Assembly (NCBI RefSeq): GCF_000060345.1
Contig: NC_008571.1
Location: 248,001-312,000 of the forward strand
Direction: 5' to 3'
Source: Christiangramia forsetii KT0803
GTDB taxonomy: Bacteria; Bacteroidota; Bacteroidia; Flavobacteriales; Flavobacteriaceae
Length of the DNA stretch: 64,000 nt
How positions within the stretch are numbered: the stretch's first letter is position 1; the number at the start of each line of letters is the position of its first letter. Positions 54,280 to 63,660 of the stretch are shown in pieces. A program made the translations under genes and the position numbers. The notes beneath the pieces are model-generated. The model made no database searches and was not told the origin of the DNA. It worked only from the letters and a program-made list of their open reading frames with translations.

Positions 54280-54367
54280 GCTCGGGTGGTGGAATTGGTA
54301 GACACGTTGGACTTAAAATCCAATGGCCATTATGGCCGTACGGGTTCAAGTCCCGTCCCGAGTACCA
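54280..54367 (+). tRNA. tRNA-Leu (anticodon TAA), host gene for the integrated element
   Basis: Class II tRNA with a long variable arm. Acceptor GCTCGGG pairs with CCCGAGT, discriminator A, and CCA is encoded (54365-54367). The anticodon loop CTTAAAA gives TAA; T-loop GGTTCAAGTCC. The gene is complete because the integrated element restores the 3' end at its left junction; the fragment at 63,375 is the duplicate. Confidence 0.97.
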
Positions 54368-54382
54368 AAGACCCTCTTAATC
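54349..54382 (+). other. attL: 34-bp core of the integrative element, inside tRNA-Leu 3' end
   Basis: The 34 bases from agtcccgtcccgagtacca onward (tRNA T-stem, acceptor 3' strand, CCA, and the start of the terminator) are repeated exactly at 63375-63408. After a three-base difference, 18 further bases (tgattttgagggtttttt) also match. This is the signature of site-specific insertion at a tRNA gene. Confidence 0.93.
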
Positions 54383-54403
54383 TTCTGATTTTGAGGGTTT
54401 TTT
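54371..54403 (+). terminator. Terminator of the tRNA unit
   Basis: accctc (54371-54376) pairs with gagggt (54393-54398), then T residues. The same hairpin is duplicated at the other end of the element (63397-63430). Confidence 0.7.
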
Positions 54404-54422: not shown

Positions 54423-54441
54423 TAGTTAACATTTAGTCAAC
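54423..54441. promoter_or_regulatory. Probable integrase arm-type sites, left end
   Basis: TAGTTAAC (54423-54430) and TAGTCAAC (54434-54441), 11 bases apart and in the same orientation; the right end has the same pair with the same spacing. Confidence 0.55.
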
Positions 54442-55040
54442 TAAGCTCTGTTTATCTTAAGTTGATAGGTTAGAACTTTTGTTTTTAAGGCGTCGTAAGC
54501 AGAATTTATCTGTTTCATTCTGTTTGGAGAATAATAAGCTGTGCCTTGTTCAACTTTAATATCTGGGATGTAATCCTGAGTAAGTTCTCCTTTAGGAGCC
54601 TTATAGGAAGTCAGGAGGTCTTTCACTGACCGGACTTGCTGCAGTACCTCATCAAATTCTTTTTTGTGATGATTAATATTGGTTGCCTTTAGAAGTTCCT
54701 CAATGTTTTTTAGTTGTACGGTAATCCTTTTGGTGTTTGCTGCTGCCTTACTGTATTCTAGGCTGGAAGATGTAATTTGAAAAGACTGATCCTTAATAAG
54801 CTGGTAAACTTCTTCAATCCTACCCAGAACTAAGTCTTTTTCCCTAACTCTATCTTCTTTGTCTTTATCTATATATATGTAAAAGAGATATACGACAATA
54901 ACGGAAACGAGCGCCGAAAAGAGAGCCACTGGATCCAGCTCGTTATTGATTCTGAAATAAGGAATGGAAATATACTTAGAGGTTACAAAGCCAAGAAAAA
55001 AAATAGCTATTGCAACCCCGATCTTAAATAGTTGCTTCAT
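54441..55040 (-). CDS. Two-TM protein with a soluble coiled coil (third gene of the STAS-GHKL cluster)
   Basis: 199 aa from the ATG at 55040 (MKQLFKIGVAIAIFF); the ATGs at 55058 and 55085 are also in frame but overlap the upstream gene more. Two membrane segments at about 6-24 and 38-57, then a charged region, a coiled coil (about 63-150) and a Tyr-containing end. I recognise no family. It overlaps the end of the DUF4325 gene by 17 bases and so is coupled to it. Topology suggests both termini in the cytoplasm with a short outside loop. It may be the effector or membrane anchor of the module. Confidence 0.6.
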   Translation of the reverse strand: MKQLFKIGVAIAIFFLGFVTSKYISIPYFRINNELDPVALFSALVSVIVVYLFYIYIDKDKEDRVREKDLVLGRIEEVYQLIKDQSFQITSSSLEYSKAAANTKRITVQLKNIEELLKATNINHHKKEFDEVLQQVRSVKDLLTSYKAPKGELTQDYIPDIKVEQGTAYYSPNRMKQINSAYDALKTKVLTYQLKINRA

Positions 55041-55371
55041 CGGTATTTCGGGCTTCATTTGCGTCCTGTATAAATTCCAGTGCATCTTCCCTCAAATAAT
55101 CCTCTTCATTGGAAATTATCTCTAAACGATTAATAACTTCTGTATAGTCAAAATTGTTTTCTCTGATCAACCCCCCGAAGATTTCCTCTAGAAAGGAGGT
55201 TCCATAACCTGCAGTCCCGTCCAAATTGACAATTACTTTTTTATTTTCTTCCAGAGCTTTTTTAAAGGCAGGAGCCAGAAGATTATTGCGAAATTCTTCA
55301 CCAGAATGCTTTCCCTCGGACATATATCTTGAGCCCGGAAAAGGTGAAAAATCAGTTGCTACCTTAATCAT
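55024..55371 (-). CDS. STAS-like DUF4325 protein
   Basis: 115 aa from the ATG at 55371 (MIKVATDFSPFPGSRY). The open frame reaches to 55431, but the ATG at 55371 overlaps the TAA of the upstream ATPase gene as ATGATTAA, a coupled start. Family motifs: GKHSGEEFRNNLLAP (20-34), VIVNLDGTAGYGTSFLEEIFGGL (46-68; shown in parts as NLDG, GYGTSF, EEIFGGL). DUF4325 proteins are STAS-like and usually occur with a GHKL ATPase gene. Role: phospho-dependent partner switching is an inference from STAS/anti-sigma biology. Confidence 0.8.
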   Translation of the reverse strand: MIKVATDFSPFPGSRYMSEGKHSGEEFRNNLLAPAFKKALEENKKVIVNLDGTAGYGTSFLEEIFGGLIRENNFDYTEVINRLEIISNEEDYLREDALEFIQDANEARNTDEATI

Positions 55372-56446
55372 TATTGAATCCATCTGTATTAAAATTGTCG
55401 GAACTAAGTTCCCAGTAAACAAAAGTACCACTAAAAGTATTTTTTAATGATAAAAATTTGTTATTATCTATATCAGCGTACACATCATTTGAGATAATAT
55501 GGAGCTTGTTAAAGTGGTTTCGTTTATAGGCTTCATAAATTCCGGGTAAACCTTTACCTCTGTAAATTTTTCCTGTAACCGTCCTGTGCAAATCTCCATT
55601 GAGGATTAATTTAAGTAATTCTTTGTTATTACTAAATGTAAATAGCCTAGAAAGTGCACTTTCCCACTTATACCATTTACTGCTCTTACCTTTCTTATTT
55701 AAGCTTTCAAAAATTCCTACCCCAAAATCTAAAAAGGAAAAGCTTACTACGCCTTCGGATTTACGGTGTTGTACAGATAAAAACCAGTGTTTTTCACCTT
55801 CTTTATCAAAGGCAGCATGGTTGTTTGTATTATGCATTAGCTCAATTAGTGAACGCTGAACACCTTGACAACGTTTGCTCTTTTTCCAGATTGTCTTACT
55901 CGCATCGGTAATAACCTTACTAGTTAACTCAGAGTCTACTTTCTTATATGCGTGAGTTGCAATAGTCCCTCCCTTAATCAAGGAATACCTATCTTCTTCT
56001 TTTATGTTCCTATATAAGTACTCAAAGAAGCCAGAGTCGAGTAAAATTTTTCTCACTTCCTCATTGGCAGGAAAATTTCCGTTGAATGGTATTCCTTTTG
56101 ACTTAAATCTTATGAGAATAGACAACAGTAAGACGAGAGCATCATAACCGATATGGGTAACCTCCTCAAAATTAACGAAAACCTTTGTCTTTCGTTTATA
56201 GAGTTTTTTTATAGACCTGATAAATTTAATTGTTTTTTCAGGTTTTTCCACTAACGAGAAGTTTTGGGGAGCTTTAATTTTAGTGTAGCCCTTAAAGCGC
56301 CTATTAAAACGATGAAATTCTGCTCTCTGGCTTTTACTGAGTCCTTGGTTTTCTCTATTTCTTATTTTCTCCTTTCTCTTCGAAGCTTGTCCTCTACGGT
56401 ATCTTTTCTGAGCTCTGTTATGGCGAATCTGTTTTCTGTTTTTCAC
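55364..56446 (-). CDS. STAS-like domain fused to GHKL (HATPase) domain
   Basis: 360 aa. The first 60 residues are very basic (MKNRKQIRHNRAQKRYRRGQ onward), then a STAS-like beta-alpha unit (about 85-150; VFVNFEEVTHIGYDALVLLL in part), then a GHKL ATP-binding domain: N box ELMHNTNNHA (202-211; the usual Asn is at 206), G1 DFGVGI (240-245), G2 GKGLPGI (297-303) and G3 SGT (339-341). So ATP binding is likely. No phospho-accepting His box is obvious, so it is not a standard histidine kinase. The gene is followed by DUF4325 (8-base overlap). Confidence 0.75.
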   Translation of the reverse strand: MKNRKQIRHNRAQKRYRRGQASKRKEKIRNRENQGLSKSQRAEFHRFNRRFKGYTKIKAPQNFSLVEKPEKTIKFIRSIKKLYKRKTKVFVNFEEVTHIGYDALVLLLSILIRFKSKGIPFNGNFPANEEVRKILLDSGFFEYLYRNIKEEDRYSLIKGGTIATHAYKKVDSELTSKVITDASKTIWKKSKRCQGVQRSLIELMHNTNNHAAFDKEGEKHWFLSVQHRKSEGVVSFSFLDFGVGIFESLNKKGKSSKWYKWESALSRLFTFSNNKELLKLILNGDLHRTVTGKIYRGKGLPGIYEAYKRNHFNKLHIISNDVYADIDNNKFLSLKNTFSGTFVYWELSSDNFNTDGFNND

Positions 56447-56843: not shown

Positions 56844-59570
56844 TCAAACCTTTTTCGCTTTTTCTTGAGAGGCAAGCAGTTCCTCATAAAGCTCAAATAA
56901 GAACTCTATTCGTCTTCTTTCGTCAGGAAATGGTTGAGGTCTATAAGCTAAATCAACTGCCTTATCAACCCTCTGGTGTGCTTTAAGAAGCTTTCTAGGC
57001 ATCATTAATGGATCGTATAAATCTGCTAAACTGTTTCCCGGAAATTCTAACCTTACGTCCAGAATCTTCTGTGCTGCGTTCTCAATTTCTGTCTTGCTAT
57101 TTTGATTAACTTCTTGTGGAAAGGGAAAGTTATTATACACTAAAGTATTTGAATACCGAAAATCACTCTTAAGCCGTCCGCAGGTATAATTCATCCACAT
57201 CATGTGCATGAGTGAATTAAGAATTCCAAAAGTAAATAAATTAGCCTCTGGCAAAGCAATTGCACTATCACTAACTATTACTTCTTTTGGTAGGTATCCC
57301 ATCGGTACATATTTCCTTCTTTCAGAGGAAACTCTAGGGATCAAAACATAATTTGTCTCAGGTTGGCGATCTTCAATAAATAATGCGGGAGATTCAGACC
57401 ACTTTTGAGTTGATTTCTTTCTGCTTGCTTCTCTGAAATCTTTCACTCTCTTGATTCTGTCTAATATTTCCGGAAATTTTCTCAACTCAGATGGTTTGGA
57501 GTCTTTAAGCCAAAGACACCATCTAGGGTTCTGGTTTATATATTCCCTGCTACCAATATATTGCCTAATGAATTGACTTGCATCAGGGTAAAGCTTTAAA
57601 AGATTGTTTTTTTCTTCATCAGTTAAGACTAGATTTCCACCATCTGTAGGAGAACTCCCTTTTATCATTTCCTGAATTCCAGCTAGTGGTTTTGACCTTC
57701 TAAGGATGATTAAGTCATTACCATCAATCAGGTATGGATTTATGTTTTTTGCTGAGGTAGTGAGGATTTCATTTCCCTGCTTATCATGTTCAAAAAGAGT
57801 CTTTTTTGAAATATCATAATTGCCAAAGCCTATAATTACAACGTGTACGGCAGCATTTCCTCTTGCTTCATTCTTCCATTTAAAGGTTCTGTATGCAAAG
57901 TGAATTTTAATATTTAGTGTATCAAACATTTCTTTCCACAAGATTCCTGCTTGTTCTCCTTGTGAAATAGAATTAGTACTAACGAAGGCTACTTCAATTT
58001 TACTTCCCTGAATATATCTCGCAGCTTTAATATACCAACCTGCGACGTAATCTAGTACACCTGATCCCTTAACAGTCTCAAAGACTATGCTTAAGTCCTC
58101 TTTCTGTTCTTTAGTTTGATAAGAGTAACCGTAGAAAGGAGGATTGCCAAGAATAAAATCAAGTTCGCTCGGTTTAACTAGTTCTTTCCAGTCTAATCTC
58201 AAAGCGTTTTCATTTCTGATAGAAACAGACTTTTTTAATGGTAACCTAACAAAATACTGCCCAAACTCCTCCGAAAGTTTCATGTTCATTTGATGATCCA
58301 TGAGCCACATTGCTACCTCAGCAATCCTTGCAGGAAATTCATCGTACTCAATGCCGTAAAACTGGTCAATATCAACTTTGATAATATCTCCTACATTCAA
58401 GAAGCCTTGTCCGGTCTTATTCAATTCTCTTAGGATGTCTAGTTCCAACTCTCTTAACTCTCTGTAGGTTATGATAAGGAAGTTTCCACAACCACATGCA
58501 GGATCTAAAAATTTCAATTTAGAAATCCTATCATGAAAGGCCTTTAGCTTTTTAGAGCTGCTCTTGACTTTTTTAAACTCAGTCCTTAACTCATCTAAAA
58601 AGAGTGGTTTGATGACTTTTTGAATATTGGCTTCTGAGGTATAATGCGCTCCTAAGTCTCTTCTTTCGTCTGGATTCATGGCTGCTTGAAACATAGAACC
58701 GAAAATTGCAGGAGAGATTTTGCCCCAATCTAAAGCGCATGCGTCGAGTAACATTGTTCTCATTTCACTGTCAAAGGAAGGAAGTCTCAAAGATTCCGAG
58801 AAAAGTTGTCCATTAACGTAGGGAAACTGGTCAGCAGCTTCGTGGATGTTCTTTAGTCTTTTTTCTCTTGGTGTATCTAAAACCTGGAAAATATATCCTA
58901 ATTGCGCCGCTAAATCAGAGCCGTCCTCTTTTGTGTGAAGGTCTAGGTACTCCTGAAAGATTCCTCTCTCAAAAATGTTAGTGTCATCAGCGAACAAGCA
59001 AAATAAAATCCTAACAAGGTATATCTCTAATTCGTGGTCGGTATATCCAATCTCCTTAAGTCTGTCATGCAGTCTTCCCATGAGATAAGCTGCGTCAATG
59101 TTCACCGGATCTTCTTCCTTGAAAGTCTTTTTCTCATAACCTGCAAGGAAACCAAATAATGAAATGTTTGTTGTAAGCTCCCTTAGGGGGAATCCATGTT
59201 CGAGATTCTCTTCCAGATCGTAGACCTTGAACTCAGCAAAATCAGAGGTAATAATAAAGCGGGGTAACTCATGGTCTTTTAGACCGGGAAAATAGTCCAG
59301 AGCTTGCGAAAAGGCACTATCTAGGTCTTTACCTTTGGATTTATGTTCTACAAGTAAAGTGCCCGGCCAAAACAGATCTATATAGCCTTGATTATCATTA
59401 AGCTTCTTAACTGCTTTTTCAAACGTAGCAACTCTTCTTCTACTAATTCCGAAGATGTTTAAAAATTCGTTCCAGAATGTATCTTTTTCTGCTCGTTCTC
59501 TTGATTCTCCTTCCCATTCTTTAGAGAAGTTTATAGATCTGCTTTTGATCTCGTTCCAGCTTAAAGGCAT
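56844..59570 (-). CDS. MmeI-like (type IIL) single-chain restriction-modification enzyme
   Basis: 908 aa, the size of MmeI. N-terminal nuclease domain: Asp65, then Glu75 and Lys77 in DLFWPGTLLVEHK, the spacing D-x9-E-x-K of the MmeI family. Helical spacer (about 155-300); class I adenine methyltransferase: GAHYTSE (307-313), motif I LDPACGCGNF (355-364) and motif IV NPPF (476-479). Target-recognition region and C-terminal helices follow (LFIEDRQPETNYVLIPRVSSERR, YTCGRLKSDFRYSNTLVYNNFPFP, in parts). Cleaves a fixed distance from its site and methylates one strand (family knowledge). The specificity cannot be read by eye. No separate methylase or restriction gene lies alongside. Confidence 0.87.
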   Translation of the reverse strand: MPLSWNEIKSRSINFSKEWEGESRERAEKDTFWNEFLNIFGISRRRVATFEKAVKKLNDNQGYIDLFWPGTLLVEHKSKGKDLDSAFSQALDYFPGLKDHELPRFIITSDFAEFKVYDLEENLEHGFPLRELTTNISLFGFLAGYEKKTFKEEDPVNIDAAYLMGRLHDRLKEIGYTDHELEIYLVRILFCLFADDTNIFERGIFQEYLDLHTKEDGSDLAAQLGYIFQVLDTPREKRLKNIHEAADQFPYVNGQLFSESLRLPSFDSEMRTMLLDACALDWGKISPAIFGSMFQAAMNPDERRDLGAHYTSEANIQKVIKPLFLDELRTEFKKVKSSSKKLKAFHDRISKLKFLDPACGCGNFLIITYRELRELELDILRELNKTGQGFLNVGDIIKVDIDQFYGIEYDEFPARIAEVAMWLMDHQMNMKLSEEFGQYFVRLPLKKSVSIRNENALRLDWKELVKPSELDFILGNPPFYGYSYQTKEQKEDLSIVFETVKGSGVLDYVAGWYIKAARYIQGSKIEVAFVSTNSISQGEQAGILWKEMFDTLNIKIHFAYRTFKWKNEARGNAAVHVVIIGFGNYDISKKTLFEHDKQGNEILTTSAKNINPYLIDGNDLIILRRSKPLAGIQEMIKGSSPTDGGNLVLTDEEKNNLLKLYPDASQFIRQYIGSREYINQNPRWCLWLKDSKPSELRKFPEILDRIKRVKDFREASRKKSTQKWSESPALFIEDRQPETNYVLIPRVSSERRKYVPMGYLPKEVIVSDSAIALPEANLFTFGILNSLMHMMWMNYTCGRLKSDFRYSNTLVYNNFPFPQEVNQNSKTEIENAAQKILDVRLEFPGNSLADLYDPLMMPRKLLKAHQRVDKAVDLAYRPQPFPDERRRIEFLFELYEELLASQEKAKKV

Positions 59571-59720: not shown

Positions 59721-60644
59721 TCACTTTATAAGTATATGTGAATTTGCACAACAAAGGGAGGCAATCTTGTCTTTCATGATTTTTCTGGTTTCCCTCAAAA
59801 GATTATAACCGGTTTTATCTAGAAGTTTAGTGTAACGTTTTTTGTTGTTCTGAAAAGTATTACGATTTAGGTTTAAAAGTTTCTCCCAGTAAAGAGGGTT
59901 AGAAAGCTTTAGAAGTAGAGTCTTTTCATTTTCGTTTAATGAACTCAAATCAAGGTCTTGATCAAGTAAAAGAACAGTTTTATATTCTTTGTATAATTGA
60001 TCGCCCAGAGTAAGATAAGTTTGTTCTAGTAGAAGATCTTCTATTGAATAAATACCAAGTTTCTTTATATACCTGCTTTTTTTGCTTTTTACCTCAAACC
60101 GAAAAACGTCTCCTTCTGTATATTCGGGAAACTGAACACTTTTTGCATAAGCCTTGATGATCTTGTATTGATTGCGGTTTCCTTTTCTATAAGTGGAACT
60201 TTTTTTACTATGAGGATGATCTGAGTCCGTTCTGAATTCGTTTCTTCCATGATAGCTAATAAACCGAACAAAATTTTTCACGTCAATAGGAACGAAAGTG
60301 TTTAGACCGAATTCTATATTAACAATATGGAAAGAACTAAGATCCGGTAGATTTAATTCCAAGATTATCGAGTTTAGAACCTTTATGCATTCAGCAGAGC
60401 TAAAGTCGTTTGCATTATGCAAATTACCATTATGATAATAGTGAGGTCTGATAAGGATTTCTAGTTTTTTCTCAAAAAAACAGAATAGAATACCATTGTA
60501 AACTTTAGTCTCTTTTGAGTTTATAGTTTCTTGATCAAAGTGGGAGAGCTGCTCACTTGAACTCTTCCAGATTAAAAGCTCATTTTTGTGAATGTGATTG
60601 ATTATAGTTTTGTCTTTAACTAGAACCTTTAGGAAGTCTATCAT
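59721..60644 (-). CDS. Putative rolling-circle/phage-type replication initiator
   Basis: 307 aa. The central block FRFEVKSKKSRYIKKLGIYSIEDLL and the preceding YRKGNRNQYKIIKAYAKS resemble replication initiators of the Rep_trans/CRI phage group found in small Bacteroidota mobile elements; the N-terminal third also fits. I cannot point to a certain catalytic Tyr (candidate Tyr in KGNRNQYKIIKAY), so the name is tentative. Encoded 4 bases after the HTH gene and probably co-transcribed with it. Confidence 0.5.
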   Translation of the reverse strand: MIDFLKVLVKDKTIINHIHKNELLIWKSSSEQLSHFDQETINSKETKVYNGILFCFFEKKLEILIRPHYYHNGNLHNANDFSSAECIKVLNSIILELNLPDLSSFHIVNIEFGLNTFVPIDVKNFVRFISYHGRNEFRTDSDHPHSKKSSTYRKGNRNQYKIIKAYAKSVQFPEYTEGDVFRFEVKSKKSRYIKKLGIYSIEDLLLEQTYLTLGDQLYKEYKTVLLLDQDLDLSSLNENEKTLLLKLSNPLYWEKLLNLNRNTFQNNKKRYTKLLDKTGYNLLRETRKIMKDKIASLCCANSHILIK

Positions 60645-60648
60645 TACC

Positions 60649-60918
60649 CTAAACTTGAGTAAGGCTTGCTTCTATTTCACTTCTCTTGTAGTAGATTTTA
60701 TTCTCAATACAATATCGTTTGATCTTTCCCTTTTTAGACCATCTATTCAGTGTGGAAAGGTTGATTTTAAGAAGCTGCGCAGTCTCTTTTCTGGTTAGGA
60801 GTTCTTCCGGCTCCTTTGGTTTTAGGGTTTCTGTGAGTTGCTTTAAAGTTGGTTCTAGCTTTTCTAGTATCTCGTTGATGAAACTGTCTGTTTCTTGAAT
60901 TAGTTGTACCTGTGGCAT
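60649..60918 (-). CDS. Helix-turn-helix / excisionase-like protein
   Basis: 89 aa. The C-terminal half is an excisionase/MerR-type helix-turn-helix (LLTRKETAQLLKINLSTLNRWSKKGKIKRYCIENKIYYKRSEIEASL, in parts: KETAQLLKI, TLNRWSKKGKI, YYKRSEIE). The N-terminal half is acidic and helical. It is typical of the small DNA-binding proteins of Bacteroidota mobile elements, which drive excision or regulate the Rep gene. Confidence 0.82.
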   Translation of the reverse strand: MPQVQLIQETDSFINEILEKLEPTLKQLTETLKPKEPEELLTRKETAQLLKINLSTLNRWSKKGKIKRYCIENKIYYKRSEIEASLTQV

Positions 60919-61001: not shown

Positions 61002-61826
61002 TTAATTTGGGTCAAATCCTATCTTTTCCAATTCTAATCTAATTTTTTCTAACCTTTTCTTAGTTAGAGGGTTGTTCTTTTGGTTAAGTGTGGAGTTATT
61101 CATCGGGTTTAGGTAAGACTGAACTGTGCTAGGTTTAATCCCTGTAAAGCTGCTTACAGCATGTGCTAAAGCATTTGTGGAAGTATTGAAGGGTTCTAAG
61201 CTTTTAAGAAAATCAATTACTCCAAGTTCTTCTAAGTAAACAATCTTCTCGCTCATATTGGAAGTGTTTAGCTCAATTTGTGGAATATCGTCTTCAAGTA
61301 GAATATGCATATCATTTTCAAAGAATTCTTTTTCAAGAAAGTCGATGATTCGATTTAAGTAATCTTCATAAAAAACATAGCTATCCCTTGATACCACTTT
61401 CCAGCAAATAGTATAAGAGCTTAAGCCTCTTTCTAAGAAATAAAAATCAAAATTACCGTAATTACAGATGACTTGTAGGTTTTGTTCTTGGAAAGCCTCT
61501 CTAAGCTGTTTTAGTCTCGTGATATAATGTTCAAACTCTGTTTTGATGAAGACTTTCTTGTTATCAGCGGGATAGGTCTTTTTCAGAATTTTGTAATGTT
61601 CTTCAATGCATAGTTTGAGATTCGATAAATCAAAATACTGTAAATAATAAACATGATTCATCAAAATGTGTTCTTGGAATGAATGCAAATTTCCTTGCTT
61701 AATATCATTCTCAGCTTTTTCATGATTCTTGTTTATTGCATCAATAACATCGGTGTGATATAGGCCTTTAGTTCTAGAAGGGTTTAGCTCAGAGAAGATA
61801 TTTAATTCGGCTGGTATGAAAGACAT
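61002..61826 (-). CDS. Unknown protein of the element, possibly DNA-binding
   Basis: 274 aa, no signal or membrane segment. The last 60 residues (ALAHAVSSFTGIKPSTVQSYLNPM and NPLTKKRLEKIRLELEKIG) form an HTH-like tail seen in proteins of Bacteroidota elements next to the integrase gene. The N-terminal 200 residues are of unknown fold. It lies 30 bases after the integrase stop and 83 bases before the HTH gene, on the same strand. Confidence 0.5.
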   Translation of the reverse strand: MSFIPAELNIFSELNPSRTKGLYHTDVIDAINKNHEKAENDIKQGNLHSFQEHILMNHVYYLQYFDLSNLKLCIEEHYKILKKTYPADNKKVFIKTEFEHYITRLKQLREAFQEQNLQVICNYGNFDFYFLERGLSSYTICWKVVSRDSYVFYEDYLNRIIDFLEKEFFENDMHILLEDDIPQIELNTSNMSEKIVYLEELGVIDFLKSLEPFNTSTNALAHAVSSFTGIKPSTVQSYLNPMNNSTLNQKNNPLTKKRLEKIRLELEKIGFDPN

Positions 61827-61856: not shown

Positions 61857-63209
61857 CTATTGATTGACAGCCTTGTTTCTTACCACTTTTAGATTAGCCT
61901 GTTTGTTAACTTGACTCTCTCTTTGTTTTTCGAATACACTTGCAATGGAATTAATGTAATCCGATGAGGTTTTACCTACATACTTAAGGTAGGTTTTCTC
62001 TGAACTATGGCCTGTTATACTCATCATAAAAGGTAGTGGCATTTGATCATGGTAATTCGTAGCAAAAGACCTTCTACAAACATGAGAGGCGATAGTTTCC
62101 CATTTTTCATAATGATCATAAACAAGTCTCTTTACTTTCTTTTTTGAGGTTTTAGATACCAAAACCATTTTAGGTACACCAGTGTAGATGATATCGTTAA
62201 ATTCTGCAATTCTGCATACTTCTTTTACATGTTCATTAAATTTCTGAGGAGTTATAGCTCTTGGGAAGCCTTCTTTTAATATTTCCTTGGCATCATAGTT
62301 CAGAGGAACTAAAACATGCTTTTCGCCTTTTGTCTGAATTAATTCGATTACCATTCTGCCTTGTACTGTGCGAACGTTTCCTTCAGTTAGCTGAAGAAGA
62401 TCTCCACCTCGTTGTCCTATGTTGCACCCCAGAATCAGCCACCTTCTAGCATTATCAAGTGCCTCAGAGTTCAGGTCAACTTTTTTCAGGACTTCTAATT
62501 CATCAAAACTGAGGTAGACTATTTCCTCTTTTTTAACCTTCCCTGCTTTAATCTTTTTTAATTGCGGGCTTATTTTAACACCGTTTGTTTCAGCATCATA
62601 ACAGATAGACTTAATGTTGTCAATCATTTTTAGGGTATATGATAAAGCATACTTTTGATCGTTATGCATCCATGTTTTAAATTTCTTGGCAAAGGCTAAA
62701 TTAACCTCGACTACTTTATACTTCTTTCTACCGCTAAATTCTTCAATTATTGTTTTACAGCGTTTAAGCCCCTGAATTCTACTTCTAGATAAACCTTTTC
62801 CTCCTTTATTATTGTCTCTAAGGTTTGCTCCATTCAAATATGAATCAATAGCATCTACCAAGTAGTCCGAATTTGATTCATTACTGACCACCCTTTTAAA
62901 ATGAAGGTCGATATTAAAGGAAAGCCAATCTCCGTTTATTTCAATTCCGCTGGAATTATCTTCGTTTAATTTGTTTAGTAGTTTAGATTCGAGGCTCTTC
63001 AAGTCAGATTTAAGTTCTCTGCCGTCAGAGGATTTTGTTTTAGGAAAACCAGTAGCCTTGCTCCAAAGACTTGGATTAATGTAGAGTCCAGTTTTTCTTT
63101 TATAGACTTTTCCTCTTCCCAAGGAGAGGCGAGCATAAACAGGTGCATTGGATGATTTACTTTGAAGTAGAAACTTAATTGAGGCCATTCTGTTCTGTTT
63201 TGCGGACAA
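61857..63209 (-). CDS. Tyrosine-type site-specific integrase
   Basis: 450 aa. An N-terminal arm-binding domain (IKFLLQSKSSNAPVYARLSL in part, about 10-60), a helical core-binding domain (about 110-210) and the catalytic domain with the full set of residues: Arg267 (GQRGGD), Lys294, His376 and Arg379 (SHVCRRSFAT), His401 (TGHSSEKTY) and the nucleophile Tyr410 (YLKYVG). The start at 63209 is followed by a second ATG in frame at 63188. It is the first gene read in from the right end and probably catalyses insertion at the tRNA-Leu. Confidence 0.95.
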   Translation of the reverse strand: MSAKQNRMASIKFLLQSKSSNAPVYARLSLGRGKVYKRKTGLYINPSLWSKATGFPKTKSSDGRELKSDLKSLESKLLNKLNEDNSSGIEINGDWLSFNIDLHFKRVVSNESNSDYLVDAIDSYLNGANLRDNNKGGKGLSRSRIQGLKRCKTIIEEFSGRKKYKVVEVNLAFAKKFKTWMHNDQKYALSYTLKMIDNIKSICYDAETNGVKISPQLKKIKAGKVKKEEIVYLSFDELEVLKKVDLNSEALDNARRWLILGCNIGQRGGDLLQLTEGNVRTVQGRMVIELIQTKGEKHVLVPLNYDAKEILKEGFPRAITPQKFNEHVKEVCRIAEFNDIIYTGVPKMVLVSKTSKKKVKRLVYDHYEKWETIASHVCRRSFATNYHDQMPLPFMMSITGHSSEKTYLKYVGKTSSDYINSIASVFEKQRESQVNKQANLKVVRNKAVNQ

Positions 63210-63374: not shown

Positions 63375-63408
63375 AGTCCCGTCCCGAGTACCAAAGACCC
63401 TCTTAATC
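63375..63408 (+). other. attR: 34-bp core repeat
   Basis: Exact copy of 54349-54382. It carries the orphan 3' end of tRNA-Leu (T-stem strand, acceptor strand, CCA) and the start of the terminator duplicate. Confidence 0.93.
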
Positions 63409-63660
63409 AGTTGATTTTGAGGGTTTTTTTGTTATGTAGCTTTTCAGACCTAGATTTAAATATCAAGGTCACCCTATAATCTCTTTGCAAAAACCTTCGC
63501 CTTCCCCTTCTCAATTTTTCGACGTTTTAAGAAGTAAATTCTTCAAAAATCACTGTATTTTTCAATTATCTATAAGAATTAAATGAAATTCTGAGATTAC
63601 AGGCAACGAACAAGCATAGTTTTTATTAAATTCGGAAAACTTAATAAAATCATTATTTAT

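Follow-up and report, generated by a model that had tools for sequence, protein, structure and literature searches.

Three overlapping genes on the minus strand of Christiangramia forsetii KT0803 encode a putative kinase (A), a STAS-like partner (B) and a small membrane protein (C), and we judge it somewhat more probable than a coin toss that they form a kinase-STAS-effector type of module in which phosphorylation gates a membrane effector. The trio lies within positions 54441-56446 of the window, the 64,000-nucleotide stretch analysed here, and probably acts as an abortive defence or addiction module. VapKSC, a system of this general kind, is known with one effector type (2026); the trio would place the same kind of switch on a membrane protein, in a separate branch. 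A search of the openly licensed literature other than preprints for DUF4325, VapKSC and related terms returned no description of this transmembrane (TM) variant, and the STAS passages of PMC7159879 have no bearing on it.

A re-check of the open reading frames confirms that three minus-strand genes overlap their neighbours, as the sequence-only reading had it. Gene A (55364-56446, minus strand) encodes 360 residues, comprising a basic helical arm (residues 1-58), a STAS domain and a SpoIIAB-like GHKL kinase domain. It opens with a GTG at 56446, and its MKN beginning agrees with the family, in which Lys stands at position 2 in 89 of 135 aligned loci. Gene B (55024-55371, minus strand) encodes a DUF4325 STAS-like protein of 115 residues with a candidate phospho-acceptor, Ser59, adjacent to Thr58, and conserved tail positions 100 and 104. 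Gene C (54441-55040, minus strand) encodes 199 residues from ATG 55040, with two N-terminal TM helices and a helical bundle of no known family. A and B share the 8 bases ATGATTAA, which hold the TAA stop of A at the point where B begins. With ATG 55040 as the start of C, its gene overlaps B by 17 bases; two further in-frame ATGs, at 55058 and 55085, could equally open the gene, which leaves the first residues of C uncertain.

On its own, A matches no Pfam family at E<=0.1 and no family in PADLOC or NCBIfam, and scans with A only gave no confirmed relative in genome contigs or viral contigs, and no phage. Its profile found two weak matches among solved structures, at E=0.014 (a designed protein) and 0.95. 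Among 56 aligned relatives of A, Pfam lists HATPase_c for 10, HATPase_c_2 for 9, STAS for 5 and STAS_2 for 2. The six best PDB matches of the AlphaFold2 model (pLDDT 90.5) are all SpoIIAB, the best of them, at 4.6e-4, being the only one below 0.001, with STAS domains among the weaker rows. As modelled, the fold of A is predicted to be SpoIIAB-like, i.e. that of a serine kinase acting on a STAS partner. The earlier description of a GHKL core with intact N, G1 and G2 boxes behind a STAS unit agrees with this model and with the motif residues, namely the N box E202...N206...H210, whose E-x3-N-x3-H form resembles that of SpoIIAB/RsbW, the G1 box D240-x-G242-x-G244 and the G2 box R296-G-K-G299. The ATP site is not degenerate: N206, D240, G242, G299, G340 and T341 are invariant in 135 of 135 loci, with E202 conserved in 134 loci and H210 in 129, in an alignment whose loci were retained since A matched the kinase-family profile and whose ATP-site columns lie outside the search pattern. 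This 135-locus set consists of the window's own locus, 10 loci that we chose and 124 from the scans, the latter required to have a distinct B, a C of no fewer than 110 residues and a recognised A of no fewer than 300; L073, L088, L089, L091, L094 and L095 fall outside it. We hold the kinase fold of A and its pairing with B with considerable confidence.

Two further features mark this kinase family. The arm ahead of the STAS domain has a median of 60 residues, 32% of them Lys or Arg, and a median net charge of +15, reaching at least +5 in 133 of the 135 loci; that of the window protein is modelled by AlphaFold2 as two helices, 2-33 and 38-50. In addition, the GHKL domain bears an aromatic pair, W221 being Trp in 131 of 135 loci and the next position aromatic in 130. 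No HTH family is among the families listed for the 56 A members.

The HMM search that had been proposed for the three proteins placed B in PF14213 (DUF4325; E=3.5e-15, its sole family above cut-off), the assignment already suggested for the second gene, and gave no Pfam family for A or C alone. No DNA-binding domain and no winged HTH were found in the 115 residues of B. Its profile matched the solved Escherichia VapS (9z7o) weakly, at E=0.23, alongside a thioredoxin at 0.35. This weak alignment puts Thr58 of B on VapS S48, with Ser59 next to it, taking the offset between chain and published numbering as 18, which is our reading. The S48 column is Ser or Thr in 8 of 8 B proteins from PIN-type (VapK-like) loci, and in just 10 of the 14 aligned B proteins of the trio type (Thr58 in the window), where the following residue, Ser59, is Ser in 14 of 14; the acceptor may therefore be shifted by one residue, or the switch may not be phosphorylation. 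In VapS a C-terminal tail blocks the effector; in the tail of B, column 100 is Tyr in 114 of the 135 loci (Phe in the window) and column 104 is Ala in 115.

Ser59 is kept in 15 of the 17 loci gathered without a search pattern (the window, L006, L068 to L073 and L087 to L095; that is, the 14 aligned loci plus L073, L094 and L095). Conservation of Ser59 and its neighbours in L096 to L255 is not counted as evidence, because those loci were found by the patterns S[FY]L[ED]ExFG[GN](L); the plasmid matches H9, H11 and H13 were left out of the locus set. The two losses, in L073 and L094, both fall in loci without an intact kinase, the L073 kinase having stop codons within its profile match and a frame that ends without a GT motif, and L094 having no kinase found upstream of B. 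Since Ser59 persists in three loci without an intact kinase, namely L088, where an IS interrupts the kinase, L091, whose kinase is partial, and L089, where neither a kinase nor C was found, this correspondence amounts to a hint at most.

For C, the sequence-only reading had proposed a two-TM coiled-coil protein of no known family. The two TM segments and the lack of a family stand, while for the proposed coiled coil a helical bundle is the better description. The window protein has two N-terminal hydrophobic segments, predicted to span the membrane, and its model (pLDDT 91.8, for a chain with four extra front residues) is a hairpin whose second helix continues into the bundle. Two TM segments are found in 56 of 72 long C proteins and one in 43 of 63 short ones. 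The family is divergent, with a median identity of 14%; a Thr column is common (112 of 135), a 'TGG[DN]F' motif occurs in 14 of 135 against 0 of 628 control proteins, and other rows are LLTxTP-like. Fold searches gave no PDB or BFVD match at E<=0.001, no Pfam family matched more than 1 of 56 members and none gave a PIN match, and PADLOC and NCBIfam returned no useful family; across the 135-locus alignment, Pfam and the fold searches, C has no relative that is known, and none of its conserved residues looks catalytic. We considered and set aside SLATT, since only 1 of 56 C proteins matches SLATT_4 (E=0.0045, under cut-off), and the HP1 protein P51700, a weak fold match that does not lie in a comparable trio according to its record annotation.

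Single scans with a B alignment confirmed 407 places in the genome contigs and another 267 in the viral contigs. In the 160 loci made up of the best 80 of each, the viral rows of which include near-copies, an ORF of the right place and size lies upstream of B in 149 and matches the A profile in 142; some of the 18 loci without a recognised kinase are at contig ends. In its N-terminal 80 residues, the ORF that follows B attains a Kyte-Doolittle mean of 1.25 in 131 of those 142 loci and of 1.6 in 115; in a control set of 628 further ORFs of these loci, 130-235 aa long, 168 (27%) attain 1.25 and 111 attain 1.6. Two of the 11 misses have no ORF found, and several have a single weaker N-terminal hydrophobic stretch. 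The sequence of C was never used for choosing loci, and because A stands upstream in so many related loci and C, unused in the selection, follows, the trio lies far above chance. The A-B-C order is thus conserved, which answers the question of co-conservation that the sequence-only reading had raised. The three proteins also co-diverge, with Mantel r of 0.50 to 0.71 and 0 of 2000 shuffles as high, a comparison made without an unlinked-gene control.

Going by their titles, the 80 best genome contigs come from Bacteroidota, Pseudomonadota, Bacillota, Patescibacteria, Verrucomicrobia, Acidobacteria and others. Within its own phylum the A-family profile is sparse, matching 5 of 395 genomes below 1e-40 with the present one included. 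Kinase A occurs in 1 of 24 genus genomes, its own (E<=1e-20), and this patchiness is unlike an ordinary chromosomal regulator. Trios are also found on plasmids of Leptospira, Vibrio, Acinetobacter, Novosphingobium and Pasteurella; the kinase on an Acinetobacter wuhouensis plasmid is interrupted by an IS element. PHROG matches are 3364 for A, 5816 for B and 34946 for the C of one locus (L232, not the window C), all listed as unknown.

The mobile, restriction-bearing setting claimed for the trio could be mapped to its ends. An element of about 9.03 kb is set in a tRNA-Leu gene (anticodon TAA, 54280-54367, plus strand) and flanked by perfect 34-bp direct repeats at 54349-54382, overlapping the 3' end of the tRNA gene, and at 63375-63408 (both given on the plus strand). 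At either end the repeat is followed by three bases and then by 18 more common bases (54386-54403 and 63412-63429). The other recognisable cargo is an MmeI-type IIG restriction enzyme-methyltransferase (56844-59570, minus strand), whose profile match is nearly full-length. The element further carries a tyrosine integrase (61857-63209), a small HTH_17 DNA-binding protein (60649-60918) that would be excisionase-like by its position, a 307-aa protein (59721-60644) whose family was not found in Pfam, PADLOC or NCBIfam, and a 274-aa protein (61002-61826) with no family above cut-off, all on the minus strand.

Twenty genus genomes were searched for the attachment site, and 9 congener loci were kept besides the one in the window, with about 1.5 kb per side. 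The attachment sequence is present at the tRNA-Leu end in 9 of 9, and over these flanks the element itself is unmatched save for one 84-bp stretch in genome G679. This stretch, with 85.7% over 84 bp, is what remains there of the 3' part of C; it lies beside a second attachment repeat and adjoins an McrB-like gene and a DUF2357/PDDEXK_7 gene, so that the site has apparently carried other restriction genes.

The neighbours of related loci hint at defence as well. Bacteroidota trio loci have 173 ORFs in their flanks, and the 144 of these that were compared matched 344 PADLOC models at 1e-10; the controls, 124 ORFs of 20 hand-picked regions that themselves include DISARM and GajB-like matches, matched 47 models; these figures count overlapping models and not proteins, the test set includes the window's own restriction gene, and the comparison omits proteins above 1200 aa and, among the 32 trio loci, all of L069 to L072 and the right flank of L068. 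By this count the surroundings point to defence, which we treat as suggestive only.

In the reading that we favour, the direction of the phospho-switch, the toxicity of C, the trigger and the anti-phage role are the parts that we infer, whereas the make-up of the domains, the intact kinase residues, the conserved gene order, the relation to VapK/VapS, the predicted membrane character of C and the mobile element are what the analysis shows. In the resting cell, the STAS protein B would keep the membrane protein C silent. A trigger would reach A, probably through the basic arm and the groove between the STAS and GHKL domains, and A would then phosphorylate B at the helix-start serine Ser59, or at the neighbouring Thr58. 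Phosphorylated B would release C, and the freed C would work at the inner membrane, arresting or killing the cell, with the outcome that the population is shielded from phage or the mobile element is maintained. C would be the only output of the trio because B carries no DNA-binding domain, and it occupies the place of VapC in the gene order; we consider C a reasonably probable effector and give an anti-phage role of the trio slightly better than even chances.

The same gene order could be read the other way, with C as the input: a sensor in the membrane would detect the entry of a phage or damage to the envelope and pass the signal to A and B, whose target would lie elsewhere in the cell. C is indeed a small membrane protein with no toxin signature, and A lacks the ssDNA aromatic of VapK, so the signal may arrive by another route. 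Against this, B has no output domain, C stands in the position of VapC, and no shared fourth gene was noticed at the loci looked at, which fall short of all loci; we regard a sensor role as unlikely. A simpler purpose, that of a plain addiction (toxin-antitoxin) module that maintains its mobile element with no dedicated anti-phage role, would suit the several plasmid trios that adjoin MazEF, HigA/RelE-type, RelE/NadS or nucleotidyltransferase/HepT genes, as well as the 267 B relatives in viral contigs and the integrative element found here. A dedicated sensor kinase, however, exceeds the needs of addiction, a restriction gene shares the element, and the closest relative, VapKSC, protects against phage in the available text of its description (PMC13373217); pure addiction is in our view rather unlikely.

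Phage genomes offer one more possibility. A trio lies close to a Cro/CI gene in Marinobacter phage AS1, and in the available table for Francisella phage KIRK (PMC7924643, 2021) a 293-aa protein (AS1-like), a 112-aa DUF4325 protein and a 125-aa TM protein are consecutive near CI and integrase, as would befit a prophage or element regulator that tunes lysogeny, induction or superinfection exclusion of its carrier. Trios are also found on plasmids and in chromosomal contigs, though, B has no DNA-binding domain that we could find, and such a role would leave unexplained why the membrane gene is kept across plasmid, chromosomal and phage settings; we find it improbable. The phosphorylation-gated membrane effector remains our preferred reading. 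It would allow us to ask by what means a STAS protein might keep a membrane effector silent and which signal the kinase reads without the known ssDNA residue, and it offers a testable function for DUF4325 and the three PHROGs.

Several known systems share parts of this design. SpoIIAB/SpoIIAA and RsbW-type pairs have the same kinase fold and the same STAS substrate class, whereas the trio kinase adds a further STAS domain and the basic arm, and its third partner is a membrane protein; no sigma factor is among the genes of the element, and targets elsewhere in the cell are possible. SLATT (SMODS/SLOG-associated) proteins are small two-TM effectors paired with a sensor. The trio resembles them in that outline, with the weak profile match in 1 of 56 noted above. 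CapK/CapS, in the available text of PMC13373217, is a GHKL kinase with a STAS substrate tied to immune operons. The trio shares this pairing and differs in that no HTH was found on A and no winged HTH on B, so that it is not evidently a transcription switch.

The GHKL/STAS phospho-switch pair foreseen by the sequence-only reading has its closest published relative, by profile matches, in VapK/VapS of the VapKSC system (Chambers et al., EMBO J 2026; PMC13373217). In the available text of that paper, VapS blocks the nuclease VapC, a phospho-mimic releases it, and VapK is proposed to phosphorylate VapS and thereby free VapC. The operon gives E. coli about 2 logs of protection against phage Bas42, which is lost in VapC, VapS S48 and VapK F54 mutants, and that text, searched for membrane terms, makes no mention of a membrane effector. 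The A profile aligns with that of PIN-type kinases at 99.4% and E=1.7e-21, spanning STAS and GHKL domains, and the B profile with the STAS partners of these kinases at 95.6% and E=1.1e-8 (hhalign). Judged from sequence, at least one PIN-type reference locus is VapKSC, as B of L083, the sole such locus tested, matches 9z7o at 1.7e-37.

A survey of PF14213 in 296 phylum genomes, whose selection was independent of the B motif, classified 57 of the 58 places listed. Four kinases match the TM-type profile below 1e-50 (that of the window, L071, L072 and L073) and a TM protein is next in 4 of 4. The VapK-type profile is matched below 1e-50 by 14 kinases, and the next gene has a PIN-like D-x-N start in 14 of 14. 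These numbers are low, and the profiles used already contained 2 of the 4 TM rows and 8 of the 14 PIN rows. PF01850 PIN is listed for 9 of the 14 D-x-N genes, 6 of them over cut-off, with nothing listed by Pfam for L081, L082, L086 and L320 and traces only for L076. The other places hold pairs without a third gene, fusions, orphans and weak matches. In a tree of 55 kinases, unrooted, with long branches and hand-chosen rows, a branch with support 95/97 has 44 TM-type kinases on one of its sides, and another, with 99/97, has 8 PIN-type kinases on one of its own, so the two types are separated by a supported branch.

The trio resembles VapKSC in architecture, with a STAS and GHKL kinase encoded first, a STAS partner second and the effector gene third; restriction specificity genes adjoin some PIN-type loci, too (Methylase_S confirmed for L082 and L083). 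It is not, however, a member of that system. Its third gene encodes a protein of one or two TM segments with no PIN match instead of the PIN nuclease VapC, its kinase, unlike VapK, has the arm of about 60 residues and the conserved aromatic pair (W221 and the next position), and the acceptor serine of B is apparently one residue off VapS S48. The column of VapK F54, assigned by our reading of the alignment without the Escherichia VapK sequence, is aromatic in 9 of 135 trio kinases (His98 in the window) and Phe or Trp in 8 of 8 PIN-type kinases; with this aromatic mostly absent, the published ssDNA trigger does not transfer unchanged to the trio. Chances seem to us evenly balanced that the trio represents a widespread new branch of kinase-STAS immune switches, in which killing or arrest by a membrane protein replaces the RNase and the trigger, perhaps read through the basic arm and aromatic pair, is other than ssDNA contact. 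Because the kinases with TM partners branch apart from those of VapC, the effector would have been swapped along with its switch, an exchange that would parallel those of other modular immune systems.

The tRNA-Leu site equivalent to that of the window element is present in the congener G679 (locus L289, 8408-12914), where a second attachment repeat, an 84-bp remnant of the gene for C (the predicted two-TM protein) and a restriction pair comprising a McrB-like protein (MrcB_N, AAA) and a DUF2357/PDDEXK_7 protein were found. Two further proteins of the window element, of 307 aa (59721-60644) and 274 aa (61002-61826), are without recognisable family.

Relatives of the DUF4325/STAS protein B were also seen in other settings. 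At L089 (7986-8306), B retains the complete SSFLEE motif, and neither a kinase nor C was detected adjoining it. At L094 (5953-6675), the B-like protein has no kinase upstream, carries a glycine where Ser59, the candidate phospho-acceptor, would be, and is followed downstream by a different membrane protein in which the TM helices are central. Kinase and DUF4325 appear to be fused in a single chain at L294 (428 aa) and L315 (415 aa); the PHROG 5816 profile matched by B has 441 positions and ends in the B-like part. Numerous DUF4325 proteins of ~340-420 aa, mostly from genus g281 (L295, L297-L304, L306-L313), resemble the kinase profiles just weakly and may represent a further use of this domain.

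Kinase and STAS genes are paired at L074, L075, L080, L318 and L319, where no third gene was detected by the automated search, which overlooked an existing third gene at L305. At four loci of the VapKSC type (L081-L084), a restriction-specificity-like gene lies immediately upstream, Pfam confirming Methylase_S at L082 and L083, and the genes at L081 and L084 being judged by eye.
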